Below, piece after piece: positions 4,676 to 50,920 of a DNA stretch of 64,000 bases. Each line of letters begins with the position of its first letter. The stretch's first letter is position 1. The notes under the pieces were generated by a model that saw only the letters and a list, made by a program, of their open reading frames with translations, ran no database searches and had not been told where the DNA came from. The DNA lies in the NCBI RefSeq assembly GCF_028607085.1, contig NZ_CP117411.1, forward strand, positions 1,116,001 through 1,180,000, given 5' to 3'. The position numbers and the translations under genes are program-made. This DNA is from Sphingomonas naphthae (GTDB taxonomy: Bacteria > Pseudomonadota > Alphaproteobacteria > Sphingomonadales > Sphingomonadaceae).

Positions 4676-5491
4676 ATGATGATCCCGCTGCTCGCCGTGC
4701 TGTCGCTGGCCGCGACATCCCCATCCGCGACATCCCCATCCGCGCCGTCGCTCTCCGCCGAGGAGGTGCGCCGGCTGCCGGCGGCCGAGGCGCGGCAGGG
4801 TGTCGTCGCCGCCGCCGACGCGGTCTATGCGATCGGCAATCGGGAGATCGGGCGCTACGCCAAGGCGGACGGCAAGCTGCTGGCGCGCTTCGCGGGCGAT
4901 GCCGGCCACTTCCCGCACATGAACAGCTGCATCGTCCACCGCCGCGAACTGGTCTGCGCCGCCTCCAGTTTCCCGGCGGTGCCGATGTGGAGCCGGGTCG
5001 AGCGGTTCGACGCGCGCACGCTCGCCCATCTCGGCAGCCGCGAGATCGCCGACGCGCCGGGATCGCTCACCTGGCTCGACTGGCACGGCGGCGCCTGGTG
5101 GGCCGCCTTCGCCAATTACGACGGGCGCGGCGGCACCCCCGGCCGCGACCATCGCGAAACCGTCGTGGTCCGCTACGACCGCGCCTTCCACGAGATTGCG
5201 CGCTGGCACTTCCCCAACAGCATCCTCGATCGCTTCGCGCCGATGAGCGCGTCGGGCGGGGCGTGGGGGCCGGATGGCCTGCTCTACGTCAGCGGCCACG
5301 ACCGGCCGGAGCTTTACGCGATGCGCGCGCCCGCCGGCGGCGGCGTGCTGGAACTGGTCGCGACGATCGCGATGCCCACCAACGGCCAGGCGATCGGTTG
5401 GGATCCGAAGGACCGCCGCATCCTCTGGTCGATCACCCGCCAGGGCAGCGAACTGGTCGCGAGCCGCATCCCGGTGGTGGCGGGCCGCTGA
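4676..5491 (+). CDS. Secreted hypothetical protein with propeller-like repeats
   Basis: A 271-residue protein of unrecognised family. It opens with a signal-like hydrophobic stretch (MIPLLAVLSLAAT), followed by a short tandem repeat, TSPSATSPSAPS, encoded by an imperfect direct repeat of GCGACATCCCCATCC. The rest alternates short beta-strand-like segments with turns such as DGLLYVSGHDRPELYAM and IGWDPKDRRILWSI, as in beta-propeller proteins that store or follow a ligand. It lies 95 bases after the TonB-dependent receptor in the same direction and could belong to the same phosphate-linked group, but a hairpin separates the two. No catalytic residues can be assigned. Confidence 0.75.
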   Translation: MMIPLLAVLSLAATSPSATSPSAPSLSAEEVRRLPAAEARQGVVAAADAVYAIGNREIGRYAKADGKLLARFAGDAGHFPHMNSCIVHRRELVCAASSFPAVPMWSRVERFDARTLAHLGSREIADAPGSLTWLDWHGGAWWAAFANYDGRGGTPGRDHRETVVVRYDRAFHEIARWHFPNSILDRFAPMSASGGAWGPDGLLYVSGHDRPELYAMRAPAGGGVLELVATIAMPTNGQAIGWDPKDRRILWSITRQGSELVASRIPVVAGR

Positions 5492-36824: not shown

Positions 36825-38576
36825 TCAGATGCCGAGGCCGCGCTTGCGGCCGAGCGTCCAGTCGATGCCGCCGCCGGCGCGGACGACGCCGGACACCTGA
36901 CGGCCGAGTTGCTGTTCGAGGGTGCTGGCCCACGGCACGAGCCGGAAGCCGAGCCCGTCGTCGACCATGGCGAAGCGGCCTGACGCGAGCGCGAGGCGCT
37001 GGCGCACAACACCTGCGATCTTCTCGCCGGAGCCAGCGGGCCGGTAGGCAAGCCCGGTCTCGCACGCGATCTTCGCGCCAACCGCGTCCAGCTCGCGCTT
37101 GCGGAGCGTGTCGAGCATTCCGCGCTCGAACACCGTCCGCTCGCCGAAGCGACGCGCCAGCCCTTCCTTGACGAGATGGTCGGTGCGCGCGTCCATCGCG
37201 CGCCGCACCTCGGCGCCGAACCCGCCGTCCGCAACGCTGGCGCCACGCTCGATCAGGCGATGGTCAAGCCAGGTCGCGCCGGGCGCTTTCACCTGCGCGG
37301 CAAGGTCAATGTCCGACCGCGTGGCGAGCACCAGCGTCGGCGTTTTCTCGCCGGGCCGGCCGACGCCGCGCAACTCGACGATGCCGCCGAGCTTGGGGCT
37401 ATGCTCCAGCGCCTCGATGCCCGGCAGGCGAACATGGTGGGTGCGCCCGTCCGTGCCGTCGATGACGGCATAGGCGGTGCCGGTCAGCTCGTCGTGCAAG
37501 CCCTTGTCGATCAGCCGGCCGGCGATCGGCTTCGCGGGCGCGCTGGTGACGACGGCGTAGCTGTCGAGCGGCCGGTCCTGCCCCCGATCCTTGAGCGCCG
37601 CGCCGATCGTGCGGATGATGTCGCCGCGCACGCCCAGCTCGCGCAGCTTCGCCGCCGCACCTTCCGCGACCGCCCATTGGCCGGTATCCCCTTCGGCCGC
37701 GAGCCCCATCGTCTTTAGGTGTTGCAAGCGCCCGACCATCAGACGGCGGAGCCGCGGATCGTCAGGGCCGGGCCGCTCGGGGCGCAAGTCGATCACGCCC
37801 AGCTCGTCGGACGCGCGCTTGATATCGGTATCGAGCCGGGTCCAGCGTTCCGCCGTCACCTCACGGTCGAGCGCGCGCTGCACCTCATGTTCGGGCTTTG
37901 GCCCAAGCTCGGCGAAGGCCAGGTCTTGCGCGCGCGAGCGGAGATTGTGGCTGATGTAGTCGCGGGAGATAACGAGATCGGCGCCCTGATCGGTAACGCC
38001 GCGCACGAGCAAGTGGACGTGCGGGTTGTCGGTGTTCCAGTGATCGACCGCGACCCAATCGAGCTGCGTCCCGAAATCCGCCTCCATCTGACGCATGAGG
38101 TCGCGCGTGTATTCGCGCAGGTCGGTCAGGTCGGCGGCATCCTCCGGCGACACGATCACCCTGAAATGATGCCGGTCATCCTTGCACCGCTCGGTGAAAC
38201 CGCGATCGTCTGCATTGTCTCCGGCCGCGTCGAACATCCGAGTAGGCGAGCCGTCGCGGGTGACGCCTTCGCGCTTCAAATATGCGACGTGCGCGGACAG
38301 CGGAGCCGAGCGCCGGCCGCCCCGGCTGCGGGTGGTCACGGGGAGCATCTTGACCATGACGCGGCGGCCCGAGCCGAACAGGCGGCTGCGGGCAAAGGCA
38401 GTGCGTCCCCGCCCGAAGGTCGATTGCGCGCCACGGCGCGCGCCGCCACGCCGGCCGCCGCTGTGGATCGCGGCGACGCGCAGCACCTCGGCGACTAGGC
38501 CGCGGCCATTGCGGCCCTGCGTCGTGCTGCGCTTGGCTTTGCCGGGACGAACGCGGAACTCGCTGTCCTCGCTCAC
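36825..38576 (-). CDS. rlxS: Relaxase RlxS (MOBP, DUF3363)
   Basis: A 583-residue relaxase that nicks oriT and leads the strand into the recipient. The metal-binding His motif NPHVHLLVRG is near residue 185, after HHFRVIVSPEDAADLTDL, and the C-terminal half is the DUF3363 region with TAYAVIDGTDGRTHHVRLPG and ERTVFERGMLDTLRKRELD. The annotated start is a GTG without a clear ribosome-binding site; an internal ATG at about codon 74 is possible. A candidate oriT lies immediately upstream. Confidence 0.93.
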   Translation of the reverse strand: MSEDSEFRVRPGKAKRSTTQGRNGRGLVAEVLRVAAIHSGGRRGGARRGAQSTFGRGRTAFARSRLFGSGRRVMVKMLPVTTRSRGGRRSAPLSAHVAYLKREGVTRDGSPTRMFDAAGDNADDRGFTERCKDDRHHFRVIVSPEDAADLTDLREYTRDLMRQMEADFGTQLDWVAVDHWNTDNPHVHLLVRGVTDQGADLVISRDYISHNLRSRAQDLAFAELGPKPEHEVQRALDREVTAERWTRLDTDIKRASDELGVIDLRPERPGPDDPRLRRLMVGRLQHLKTMGLAAEGDTGQWAVAEGAAAKLRELGVRGDIIRTIGAALKDRGQDRPLDSYAVVTSAPAKPIAGRLIDKGLHDELTGTAYAVIDGTDGRTHHVRLPGIEALEHSPKLGGIVELRGVGRPGEKTPTLVLATRSDIDLAAQVKAPGATWLDHRLIERGASVADGGFGAEVRRAMDARTDHLVKEGLARRFGERTVFERGMLDTLRKRELDAVGAKIACETGLAYRPAGSGEKIAGVVRQRLALASGRFAMVDDGLGFRLVPWASTLEQQLGRQVSGVVRAGGGIDWTLGRKRGLGI

Positions 38577-40099: not shown

Positions 40100-40657
40100 T
40101 CAGGACCGGGCGGCACGCCACGTCAGCGGCGCTTCGGGCGTGTCGCGGGTGAGGATCGGGATCGCGCGGCCGAGCACGGTCGAAGCCGGCAGCGGCCCGA
40201 AATAGCGCCCGTCCAGGCTGTCGGGATGTCCGGGATTGAGGAGAAGCAGCTCGCCTGCCGCGAGCGTGCGGCAACCTTGCCACCCGGGCAGCGGACGGCC
40301 GATCCGGTCACGGATCAGGGCGACGGCAACCACCCGTCCATCAACGCTGATCGTCACGCCGATCCGGCAAACGCGCTGCCCCGTCTTGGCGGTGACATGC
40401 TTCAACAGCGGCACGTCGCGGCCGAGATAGCCGCGCTCGGCCAACCAGCGCCCAAGCCGCTCGGGCGGCGCGACGGCGACAAGCGCGCCAACCGGCGGAT
40501 CGCTGTCGGGCCGTATGCGATAGAGGCCGAGCGGTGCGCTCGCGCTGGCGTTCCAGATGACGCGCGGGAGCGGATCGGTGAGGGCGATCGCAGCGAACGA
40601 TAGGACGAACGCTGATGCGGCGAAGGCTGTCGCGCGGAAATAGAGGCGGCGCGTCAT
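40100..40657 (-). CDS. traF: TraF-like S26 peptidase (conjugative pilin processing)
   Basis: A 185-residue S26-family peptidase with one N-terminal membrane segment (FAASAFVLSFAAIALTDP). The Ser region is NASASAPLGLYRI and the Lys region is LLKHVTAKTGQRVCR. A late GHPDSLDGRYFGPLP segment is characteristic of TraF. In IncP plasmids TraF cuts and cyclises the TrbC pilin, and a TrbC is present here. Its ATG overlaps the DUF2840 stop. Confidence 0.92.
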   Translation of the reverse strand: MTRRLYFRATAFAASAFVLSFAAIALTDPLPRVIWNASASAPLGLYRIRPDSDPPVGALVAVAPPERLGRWLAERGYLGRDVPLLKHVTAKTGQRVCRIGVTISVDGRVVAVALIRDRIGRPLPGWQGCRTLAAGELLLLNPGHPDSLDGRYFGPLPASTVLGRAIPILTRDTPEAPLTWRAARS

Positions 40658-41160
40658 CCCTCGATCTCCCGGCGCTTGAGCCAGGCGCGATGACGCTCCA
40701 GCGTGTAGGGGCGCGGGACTTGTCCGGCGGCGATGCGGTTGTGAACGTGCCGCCAATGGTCGGGCGCGGCTTCACACGGATCGACGCCGGCCGCTTCGGT
40801 TGCGTCAATCGCCGCGAGAACCTGACTGACCTTGGGCCAGCCCTCGATCTTGAGCAGGATGTCGCCACCCGGCCGCACGAACGGCAGCGTCGTGAACGGC
40901 TCAGCCGCGCCGACCGCGCGCACGATGTCGATGCGCGAGCTGACCGTGCCGTAGTCGTTCGCCGCCCAGCGGACGAAGGCGAAGATCGCGCCCGGCTTGA
41001 AGCGGACGATGCGGCGGCGGCGATCGACGATTTCGTCCACGGCAACGCGGCCGAACCTGATCCAGTGCTCGATCCGCTTCTCGATCCAGGTCAGTTCAAC
41101 GCGAGTCATGCCGTCGTCGGATGGCTGGCGGTGACGCATGGGTGGCGGCGGGACGGTCAT
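40654..41160 (-). CDS. DUF2840 family protein
   Basis: A 168-residue protein of the DUF2840 family, with TRVELTWIEKRIEHWIRFGR, RFKPGAIFAFVRWAANDYGT and the C-terminal HNRIAAGQVPRPYTLERHRA. It is found between the rdfS-like gene and traF in this type of element. Its function is not known. The ATG used overlaps the upstream stop codon; an internal ATG 17 codons later is an alternative. Confidence 0.88.
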   Translation of the reverse strand: MTVPPPPMRHRQPSDDGMTRVELTWIEKRIEHWIRFGRVAVDEIVDRRRRIVRFKPGAIFAFVRWAANDYGTVSSRIDIVRAVGAAEPFTTLPFVRPGGDILLKIEGWPKVSQVLAAIDATEAAGVDPCEAAPDHWRHVHNRIAAGQVPRPYTLERHRAWLKRREIEG

Positions 41161-41423: not shown

Positions 41424-41551
41424 GTGACGGCTCCTGCGGGCGGTGGCGGCAGGAGGCGTAATTGTCAGAATGGAGGCGGCCGGGTGGGGTATGAAGATGT
41501 GCGGCTGCGCGGATGTGACCACCCCCGCGTCAGCGGGCCAGGATAGGCGTT

Positions 41552-42220
41552 TCAGCGGATGCGGAGCAGCTTGCGGTAATCGCCTTTCATCATGGCGATG
41601 CCATCACGGACCAGCCGAACCACAAACGACCGGGACGCTGACATTTTCCAGTCGCTCGCGGAGAGCTTGGCCGCGTCCTCGCGCCCCAGCTCGACCGCGA
41701 TCTGGCGATAGGTTGCACCGCCATCACGCAAATCAAGGGCGCGGAGGATCAGGCTTAGGCGGGCTAAGCGATAGGGTGTGAGCGGCCAACCGCGCGGCAA
41801 CGGTCCGGCCTCCCGGCCGAGCAGCCGGCGATGGAAGCGCAATAAGGTGGCGATCCGGGTAACGAAGTCCCGGTCGAGCGGGATGATGGCGGCGAGCGGT
41901 CGGCCGGGGGTCGGGTCACGCAGCCATAGCCGATGCTCGCCGGCTGCGTCGGCGACGATGACGTGGCGCCCGTCGATCCCCGCCAGGTCCGCGAGCAGCG
42001 TGCCGAGCAAGTGCGGATCGACCGGCTGAGCGCTCGCGAATCCGTCCGGCGCCGCGTCGAGAATGACCGTGACGGCGGTCAGTTCCGGCCGCCAAACGAC
42101 GGGCTGGGTCAGGTCATCGGGCGCCGTGGCGAAAGGACAACCCCCAGCGCCGCGCGAACGCCGACTCGGCGGCGTTCTTTGCGACGGCGCCGCTCGCGAT
42201 GCGTTGCTGCATCTGCGCAT
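41552..42220 (-). CDS. DUF2285 domain, C-terminal half of an FseA-like activator (+1 frameshift)
   Basis: The conserved part starts at about base 42130 with ATAPDDLTQPVVWRPE and continues through LDRDFVTRIATLLRFHRRLL and GWPLTPYRLARLSLILRALD to the end. This is a DUF2285 domain. The frame is open to 42220, but the extra N-terminal stretch is Arg-rich, is a shadow of the upstream gene and has no ribosome-binding site. The domain appears to be translated by a +1 shift from the DUF6499 frame. In ICEMlSymR7A the equivalent fused protein, FseA, activates rdfS and excision. Confidence 0.75.
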   Translation of the reverse strand: MRRCSNASRAAPSQRTPPSRRSRGAGGCPFATAPDDLTQPVVWRPELTAVTVILDAAPDGFASAQPVDPHLLGTLLADLAGIDGRHVIVADAAGEHRLWLRDPTPGRPLAAIIPLDRDFVTRIATLLRFHRRLLGREAGPLPRGWPLTPYRLARLSLILRALDLRDGGATYRQIAVELGREDAAKLSASDWKMSASRSFVVRLVRDGIAMMKGDYRKLLRIR

Positions 42221-42335
42221 GTTCGGCGCGATAGGTGAGGTTACGGCGTAGAAACTCGGCGGCTATGTCGGCGCGCCCGATCGCGTTGGACAGACCGCCG
42301 TCGCGTCGCTGGCGCCGGCGCTGTGGCGTCGGCAT
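42114..42335 (-). CDS. DUF6499 domain, N-terminal half of an FseA-like activator
   Basis: A 73-residue protein: an ATG after GGGAGG, an Arg-rich start, then IAAEFLRRNLTYRAEHAQM and ESAFARRWGLSF, the DUF6499 signature, ending five codons later at a TGA. In fused relatives the text after RRWGLxF continues directly into the DUF2285 part, which lies here in the +1 frame. The stop would therefore yield a short product most of the time and a fused activator when the ribosome shifts. Confidence 0.72.
   Translation of the reverse strand: MPTPQRRRQRRDGGLSNAIGRADIAAEFLRRNLTYRAEHAQMQQRIASGAVAKNAAESAFARRWGLSFRHGAR
42131..42137 (-). other. Candidate +1 ribosomal frameshift site
   Basis: On the minus strand the codons read TCC TTT C followed by GCC. 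Skipping the C after TTT joins the DUF6499 frame (WGLSF) to the DUF2285 frame (ATAPDDL) without loss of any conserved residue. An inactivating indel would give the same picture, but a short C/T-rich run like this is a plausible slip site. Confidence 0.5.
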
Positions 42336-42482: not shown

Positions 42483-42755
42483 TTAACGCCTTGCTGGCCT
42501 CTGGCAGCCGAGCAGATGGGCATAGCCAACCTCGGTCATCCATCGTGCTCGCGCAAGATGACTGTCGTGCATTGTCTTCGCTCTGTGCGGTTCGGCGGCA
42601 GCGTCGATGCCGAGAATACAGGCGGCGACCTCGCGCCAGTCTGCGCCTTCGTCGTCGGCGTCGAGCAAGCGCAGATAATCGCCGAGATGGCCTTCATCGT
42701 AGGCGGTGAGCTGTGATACGTCCGGCGCACGATCCGCGAATGGGCTGGTGCTCAT
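42483..42755 (-). CDS. Short DUF2285 protein, QseM-like antiactivator
   Basis: A 90-residue single-domain DUF2285 protein: YDEGHLGDYLRLLDADDEGA, WREVAACILGIDAA, RARWMTEVGYAHLL. In ICEMlSymR7A the equivalent protein QseM binds and blocks FseA (and TraR), keeping the element quiet. A GAGGG site precedes the ATG. It is divergent from a small XRE-type repressor gene, exactly as qseM is from qseC. Confidence 0.78.
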   Translation of the reverse strand: MSTSPFADRAPDVSQLTAYDEGHLGDYLRLLDADDEGADWREVAACILGIDAAAEPHRAKTMHDSHLARARWMTEVGYAHLLGCQRPARR

Positions 42756-42867: not shown

Positions 42868-42911
42868 GACGATACACCTTATAGGAGATAAACCGCATAA
42901 TGTGTATCGTC
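42868..42911. promoter_or_regulatory. Inverted repeat in the QseM/QseC-like divergent promoter
   Basis: A perfect 10-base inverted repeat, GACGATACAC at 42868-42877 and GTGTATCGTC at 42902-42911, separated by 24 AT-rich bases that include CATAAT. It ends 13 bases before the repressor ATG. It is the natural candidate for the operator of the XRE repressor encoded next to it. Confidence 0.65.
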
Positions 42912-42924
42912 CAGTTTGCCGCGC

Positions 42925-43152
42925 ATGGACATGCGCCGCCTCGTGGGATTGAACTTTGCCCGGCTGAGGAAGGAAAAGGGCTTTACCCAGGAGCGCTTTG
43001 CCGAAACATCAGGATTCACGCAGCAATATGTGAGTGATTTGGAGCGAGGCCGCCGTAATCCTACAGTCGTGACCTTGTTTCATTTGGCTTCCGCACTTGG
43101 CGTCACGCCGGCTGATCTTCTTGCTGAAGCCGATCAGACCGAGACTGACTAA
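42925..43152 (+). CDS. XRE-family repressor, QseC-like
   Basis: A 75-residue single helix-turn-helix protein: VGLNFARLRKEKGFTQERFA, ETSGFTQQYVSDLERGRRNP, LASALGVTPADLLAEADQ. This is the compact Cro/C1 fold of QseC and of controller proteins. A TTG three codons upstream is in frame, but the ATG was preferred. Neither has a strong ribosome-binding site, so the message may be leaderless. It likely represses its own and the qseM-like promoter through the adjacent inverted repeat. Confidence 0.85.
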   Translation: MDMRRLVGLNFARLRKEKGFTQERFAETSGFTQQYVSDLERGRRNPTVVTLFHLASALGVTPADLLAEADQTETD

Positions 43153-48176: not shown

Positions 48177-48422
48177 ATGGCAGTCATGACGATCCGAAAC
48201 ATCGACGATGCGATCAAAAATCGTCTGCGCCTGCGCGCTGCGATGCACGGTCGGTCGATGGAAGATGAGGCCCGCGACATCCTGCGTTCGGCGCTCTCGA
48301 CCGAAATCCCGCGGCCTCGCAATCTGGGCCAGGCCATCCATGAAAGGTTCGGCGCGCTGGGCGGCGTGGATCTGCCTGAGCTGTCCCGCGAGCCGATCCG
48401 GGCGGTGGACTTCGGCGAATGA
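48177..48422 (+). CDS. FitA-type antitoxin (Arc/ribbon-helix-helix)
   Basis: An 81-residue antitoxin. The N-terminal ribbon-helix-helix reads MTIRNIDDAIKNRLRLRAAM, then HGRSMEDEARDILRSAL, the FitA/VapB signature. The C-terminal tail wraps the toxin. The start was set at the ATG four bases after GGAGGT; an ATG further upstream overlaps that site. It is coupled to the PIN toxin by an ATGA overlap. The complex would repress its own promoter. Confidence 0.92.
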   Translation: MAVMTIRNIDDAIKNRLRLRAAMHGRSMEDEARDILRSALSTEIPRPRNLGQAIHERFGALGGVDLPELSREPIRAVDFGE

Positions 48423-48841
48423 TCGTCCTCGACACAAACGTCATTTCCGAGCTGATGCGGCGCGAGCCTGACCCGAGGGTGATGGCGTGGATCGCCGAGC
48501 AGCCGATGGCGGGCGTATTCACGACGACGCTGACGCAGGCGGAAATCTTCTACGGACTGGCATTGCTTCCCGAGGGACGCCGCCGCGATGATCTGCTGGC
48601 CGCCGCGCGTCCCATGTTCGACGTCGATCTGGCTGGCCGCGTCTTGCCGTTCGATACCGAAGCGGCGCTTGCCTATCCCGAGATCGCCGCCGGGCGGAAA
48701 CAGGGCGGCAAGCCGATCAGCCAGATCGACGCGCAGATTGCCGCCATCGTGCGCTCGCGCGGCGCAAGGCTGGCGACTCGCAATGTGCGCGACTTCGCCG
48801 AGTGCGGGATAACGGTCGTCGATCCGTGGAGCGAAGCATGA
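48419..48841 (+). CDS. FitB/VapC-type PIN-domain toxin
   Basis: A 140-residue PIN-domain ribonuclease toxin. Metal-binding acids lie in MIVLDTNVISELMR (Asp5), LTQAEIFYG (Glu) and the DAQIAAIVRSRGARLATRNVR region (Asp), with a final Asp in NVRDF. It cuts RNA when the antitoxin is lost and so stabilises the element. It is adjacent to the integration module. Confidence 0.93.
   Translation: MIVLDTNVISELMRREPDPRVMAWIAEQPMAGVFTTTLTQAEIFYGLALLPEGRRRDDLLAAARPMFDVDLAGRVLPFDTEAALAYPEIAAGRKQGGKPISQIDAQIAAIVRSRGARLATRNVRDFAECGITVVDPWSEA

Positions 48842-49187: not shown

Positions 49188-50920
<1,733 letters not shown>

Follow-up and report, generated by a model that had tools for sequence, protein, structure and literature searches.

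A split fseA homologue in a sphingomonad mobile element, very probably expressed by programmed +1 ribosomal frameshifting

Organization of the split fseA gene

The stretch of Sphingomonas naphthae DNA analyzed here (64,000 nucleotides, hereafter the window) contains a split gene that, judging from its sequence and from those of its relatives, is very probably an intact homologue of fseA, whose 260-amino-acid product would be made by a programmed +1 ribosomal frameshift at UUU-C. On the minus strand, the zero frame starts with an ATG at 42335, preceded by the ribosome-binding site GGGAGG (42346-42341), and reads MPTPQRRR...AAEFLRRN...RRWGLSF, i.e., 68 amino acids up to the phenylalanine of the slip codon, followed by RHGAR and a TGA stop (42116-42114). 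The +1 frame reads ATAPDDLTQPVVWRPE... from 42130 until the stop at 41552 (Table 1).

The first frame carries DUF6499 (PF20109, 60 bits for a cut-off of 23.8), and the second carries DUF7012 (PF22792, E = 5e-32) and DUF2285/RovC_DNA-bd (PF10074, 117 bits for a cut-off of 26.4, E = 8e-34), the latter also matching RovC (6xz5) in a profile comparison (E = 5e-6). All three Pfam scores lie well over their cut-offs. The zero frame includes an AWEFLRRN-like helix, in which the tryptophan is replaced by alanine (AAEFLRRN) in this fseA clade. The DUF2285 part of FseA is basic (pI 10.9), and the predicted tryptic peptide spanning the junction has 60 amino acids (WGLSFATAPDDL...GIDGR). Translations and Pfam matches agree with the preliminary description, which had placed DUF6499 and DUF2285 in these two frames at these coordinates, the second in +1 and joined at TTT-C. 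The analogy that it drew with FseA also holds, both by domain content and by the neighboring QseM and RdfS genes.

Table 1. Features of the fseA module and of the downstream transfer genes (positions in the window)
Feature	Position	Strand	Evidence
fseA, zero-frame ORF: DUF6499 with AAEFLRRN helix	42114..42335	-	PF20109, E = 2.9e-16
fseA, +1-frame ORF: DUF7012 middle and DUF2285 DNA-binding domain, 192 aa	41552..42130	-	Pfam, RovC profile
+1 slip site TTT-C	42131..42134	-	TTT in 44/44 dereplicated relatives; TTT genomic share 10.6%
SD-like TGGGGG (codons W-G) upstream of slip site	42141..42146	-	GGG in 44/44 dereplicated relatives
qseM-like antiactivator, 90 aa, lone DUF2285 domain	42483..42755	-	QseM (7uqt), E = 3.3e-15
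Inverted repeat between qseM and xre, candidate operator	42868..42911	.	15 nt, 93%, 14-nt gap
Gene for an XRE-family regulator, oriented divergently to qseM and placed like qseC	42916..43152	+	HTH_3, E = 2e-16
Conserved block upstream of rdfS, candidate FseA-binding/promoter region	41483..41524	-	42 nt, 60-101 nt upstream
rdfS-like wHTH gene, 88 aa	41157..41423	-	RdfS (8dgl), E = 1.9e-10
DUF2840 gene of the rdfS operon	40654..41160	-	Pfam
traF-like S26 signal peptidase	40100..40756	-	
rlxS-like relaxase	36825..38576	-	Relaxase and DUF3363

Conservation of the split

A GTDB-wide genome scan returned 67 related loci from many genera (Sphingobium, Sphingomonas, Novosphingobium, Nitrobacter, Enterovirga, Prosthecomicrobium, Mesorhizobium, and others), and the junction was readable in 66 of them, locus L091 ending before it. 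The same +1 break occurs at the same phenylalanine codon in all 66. The slip tetranucleotide is TTT-C in 65 and TTT-T in the remaining one, a natural variant from Qipengyuania qiaonensis with the same +1 break (L076, positions 4984-5000). The conservation of TCC TTT C GCC predicted by the preliminary description was borne out in the closest group of relatives as TCC/TCT/TCG-TTT-C-GCN.

Frame breaks in mobile-element genes are commonly caused by decay, and single-frame homologues do exist (see below), so that a pseudogene or a sequencing error, where a lone one-base indel broke a once-intact gene, had to be considered. The identical break in 66/66 readable near relatives, from independent assemblies, leads us to reject a lone indel or assembly error, which is made extremely unlikely also by the domain scores and the high amino acid identity that both halves retain. 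The outcome that would have spoken against the preliminary description, namely, single-frame homologues around an isolated indel in this gene, is thus clearly not the one found.

A similar gene order is found on alphaproteobacterial plasmids, and the slip site could be read on pMLb (M. japonicum), pMC4, pMpar-1, and a Paracoccus plasmid. Annotation pipelines call DUF6499 and DUF2285 as separate proteins on such alphaproteobacterial plasmids, or miss the first one. Such two-CDS annotations would fit a two-subunit regulator whose halves are translated independently or by stop-start coupling, and the ORF finder does offer an ATG for the second frame (at 42220). However, this codon is not conserved among relatives and is almost certainly not a true start. 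No conserved start codon was found in the second frame near the junction among the related loci, many of which lack any such codon within 60 codons past the junction, and reinitiation at the ATGA of the zero-frame stop would not yield the second frame. An internal start for the second frame was rejected on the grounds of its lack of conservation. The existence of fused homologues and the location of synonymous constraint at the slip site (see below) further argue against two proteins, a reading that we regard as highly unlikely.

Codon constraint at the slip site

Programmed frameshifting is further supported by the codons of the site, which were analyzed in a dereplicated set of 44 close relatives that diverge by 21.5% on average at the nucleotide level. 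Within the W-G-L-S-F codons, glycine, leucine, and phenylalanine are encoded by GGG, TTR, and TTT, respectively, in 44/44 relatives, with zero synonymous variation for GGG and TTT. These codons are infrequent in the genome, as sampled from ten 20-kb stretches: TTT accounts for 10.6% of phenylalanine, TTG and TTA together for 6.7% of leucine, and GGG for 17% of glycine codons. The joint chance of GGG-TTR-TTT under this usage is ca. 0.0012 per gene. Since the loci are related, the 44 are not independent draws, and kinship was controlled for by contrasting the site with the remaining conserved codons in these genes. In this contrast, which covers 144 conserved codons, the greatest excess of codon rarity relative to the genome is that of the leucine of the site, followed by that of its phenylalanine.

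In a separate family-wide sample, 22 of 28 readable homologues were split at the motif and 6, from related genomes, were FseA-like proteins encoded in a single frame (L007, L008, L009, L023, L028, and L030). The existence of the latter implies that the shift is not required for a working protein, and they represent natural unbraked controls.

Proposed slip mechanism

The zero frame runs TGG GGG TTG TCC TTT into the slip codon (42134-42132), and the A-site codon at the slip is CGC in the zero frame and GCC in the +1 frame. Pairing of the upstream UGGGGGU with the 16S tail is predicted at -9.6 kcal/mol (-10.7 for a prfB-type sequence), which beats 98.8% of the synonymous encodings, only 1.2% doing equally well. 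The motif TGGGGNYTNNNNTTTC has one occurrence in the 4.3-Mb genome. We found no conserved RNA structure downstream of the site that could act as a stimulator (z = -0.8).

These features suggest that a ribosome on UGGGGG UUG UCC UUU CGC would pause while its 16S tail pairs with the SD-like UGGGGG, and that the P-site tRNA-Phe (GAA) could re-pair from UUU to UUC, which is the simplest slip. GCC would then be decoded as alanine, giving ...RRWGLSF-ATAPDD.... A slip one codon earlier (UCC-U-UUC) yields the same peptide and is indistinguishable from it by protein sequence. Most ribosomes would presumably not shift and would stop five codons on, leaving a DUF6499-only peptide, and the shifted product would join DUF6499 and DUF2285 in one FseA.

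The run of five Gs just upstream of the slip site raises the alternative of transcriptional slippage, in which RNA polymerase drops a base in the run and the frame is restored without any shift by the ribosome. Yet GGGGG is short for slippage, and homologues that read TGGGGCCT or TGGGGTTT have an even shorter run. Moreover, the amino acid constraint on the zero frame persists past the run, through L-S-F, and the TTG/TTA and TCC/TCT variation is synonymous in the zero frame only. Slippage can therefore be given almost no weight compared with a shift by the ribosome.

The putative antiactivator gene, the xre switch, and the transfer operon

The qseM-like gene sits between the XRE gene and fseA. 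It immediately precedes fseA and shares its strand, and the protein encoded by qseM is acidic (pI 5.4), in contrast with the basic DUF2285 part of FseA. Nothing convincing was found when looking for a promoter in the qseM-fseA gap, for which 18 sequences were extractable. The 15-nt inverted repeat between qseM and xre (GACGATACACCTTAT/ATAATGTGTATCGTC) is partly conserved in relatives and is probably the operator of the switch. Immediately downstream of fseA, rdfS probably starts with a TTG served by an AGGAG ribosome-binding site. It is followed by genes encoding the DUF2840 protein, the S26 peptidase, the DUF3363 relaxase, a TraG-type coupling protein, and by trb genes. Searches by tblastn with the window proteins in the 67 loci, some of which are cut by contig ends, revealed qseM in 65, rdfS in 65, DUF2840 in 63, and xre in 45, and the QseM, XRE, and RdfS neighbors keep their order across relatives.

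The conserved block upstream of rdfS matches the published FseA box in position, and its outer arms (GGGTGG and CCACCC) are ca. 31 nt apart, unlike the 16-bp spacing published for that box. A search upstream of rdfS for the FseA box itself, two inverted hexamers 15 to 16 bp apart, recovered no clean hexamer pair.

Once made, FseA would activate the downstream rdfS-DUF2840-traF transfer operon. If FseA is made only by the +1 shift, the level of activator would therefore be low, and the frameshift would act as a brake on transfer. The QseM homologue encoded upstream should bind to the helix of DUF6499 and inhibit FseA, and qseM itself would be under the control of the divergent xre gene. One could speculate that in this clade the tandem qseM-fseA, placed below the XRE switch, forms a quorum-independent brake where the unshifted DUF6499 peptide, presumably abundant and with its probable QseM-binding helix, soaks up QseM. 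We consider this decoy function rather unlikely; if true, the efficiency of the frameshift would set both the level of the activator and that of the free antiactivator.

Recombinase and possible edge of the element

A single recombinase was found in the window, a large serine recombinase with Resolvase, Recombinase, and Zn-ribbon domains (49188-50909, plus strand), which is also the only match to PF07508 in the genome. Its 3' end overlaps a tRNA-Arg(CCG) encoded on the opposite strand (50844-50920, minus strand), and it is possible that the integrase and the right edge of the element are found here. No match of at least 13 nt that could be an att repeat was found between the tRNA-Arg region and the rest of the window. 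There was no match to PF00589 (tyrosine integrase) within the window, and no left end could be placed for the element. A gene encoding a PIN-domain (VapC-like) protein (48419-48841, plus strand) is also found near the right end. As the recombinase found in the window is of the serine type, RdfS can be connected with excision less confidently here than in R7A. The term excision activator, used in the preliminary description, is accordingly supported as regards the FseA identity (domains and QseM/RdfS neighbors), and the excision role itself stays conjectural. The window has no LuxR/LuxI genes, which the genome carries on contig C3 only, separate from the contig of the window.

Novelty and implications

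Control of this transfer activator by frameshifting is not new and was already described between 2015 and 2023. A 2015 study by Ramsay and colleagues reportedly describes a +1 programmed frameshift site in FseA genes across proteobacteria. Approximately 61% of 4709 FseA homologues are split, with the +1 site present across proteobacteria (Ramsay and colleagues 2023, PMC10359603), and the frameshift, the domains, the antagonism by QseM, and the wide proteobacterial occurrence have all been published (PMC10359603, PMC5882170, PMC5009743). The preliminary description had proposed that the same brake exists in a sphingomonad element: the conserved split and the codon constraint support the programmed +1 shift, but its occurrence in sphingomonads is not a novelty, since earlier work had established such frameshifting as a general trait of FseA genes in proteobacteria (PMC10359603).

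The gene is instead a clean example of a widespread and systematically misannotated frameshift gene, with the constraint quantified at the level of codons. The whole switch (xre, qseM, fseA, and rdfS) forms one compact module conserved in sphingomonads and other alphaproteobacteria. Together with the quantified site, this makes the module a handy system for testing how the brake is released without a nearby LuxR/LuxI pair.

Comparison with known systems

The +1 frameshift of prfB likewise combines a P-site codon able to slip +1 with an SD-like element shortly before it. It differs from the site described here in that our A site has no stop codon and in the spacing between the SD-like element and the slip codon, which is 2 nt in prfB and 5 nt here (from GGGGGU). 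RovC of Yersinia (6xz5) shares the DUF2285-type DNA-binding domain, its fold being published as similar to FseA, but it activates a type VI secretion locus, as indicated by the name of the Pfam family.

The closest comparison is with ICEMlSymR7A of Mesorhizobium japonicum R7A. There are several differences: fseA is here flanked directly by qseM (upstream) and rdfS (downstream), a DUF2840 gene is placed between rdfS and traF, the helix reads AAEFLRRN instead of AWEFLRRN, and the window lacks the LuxR/LuxI (TraR/TraI) quorum sensing genes. The RdfS of R7A partners IntS, a tyrosine recombinase, whereas the recombinase found in the window is a serine recombinase. In R7A, FseA (msi172-msi171) is likewise encoded as DUF6499 and DUF2285 in two frames, with a +1 junction beside WGL codons and an SD-like UGGGGG, with a qseM-qseC locus nearby, and with the rdfS-traF operon and the relaxase as targets. 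Homologues of its QseM (7uqt) and RdfS (8dgl) are found here in the same module (E = 3e-15 and 2e-10, respectively), the divergent xre/qseM pair matches the qseM-qseC arrangement of the R7A family, and the acidic QseM and basic DUF2285 part of FseA resemble the pair described in R7A.
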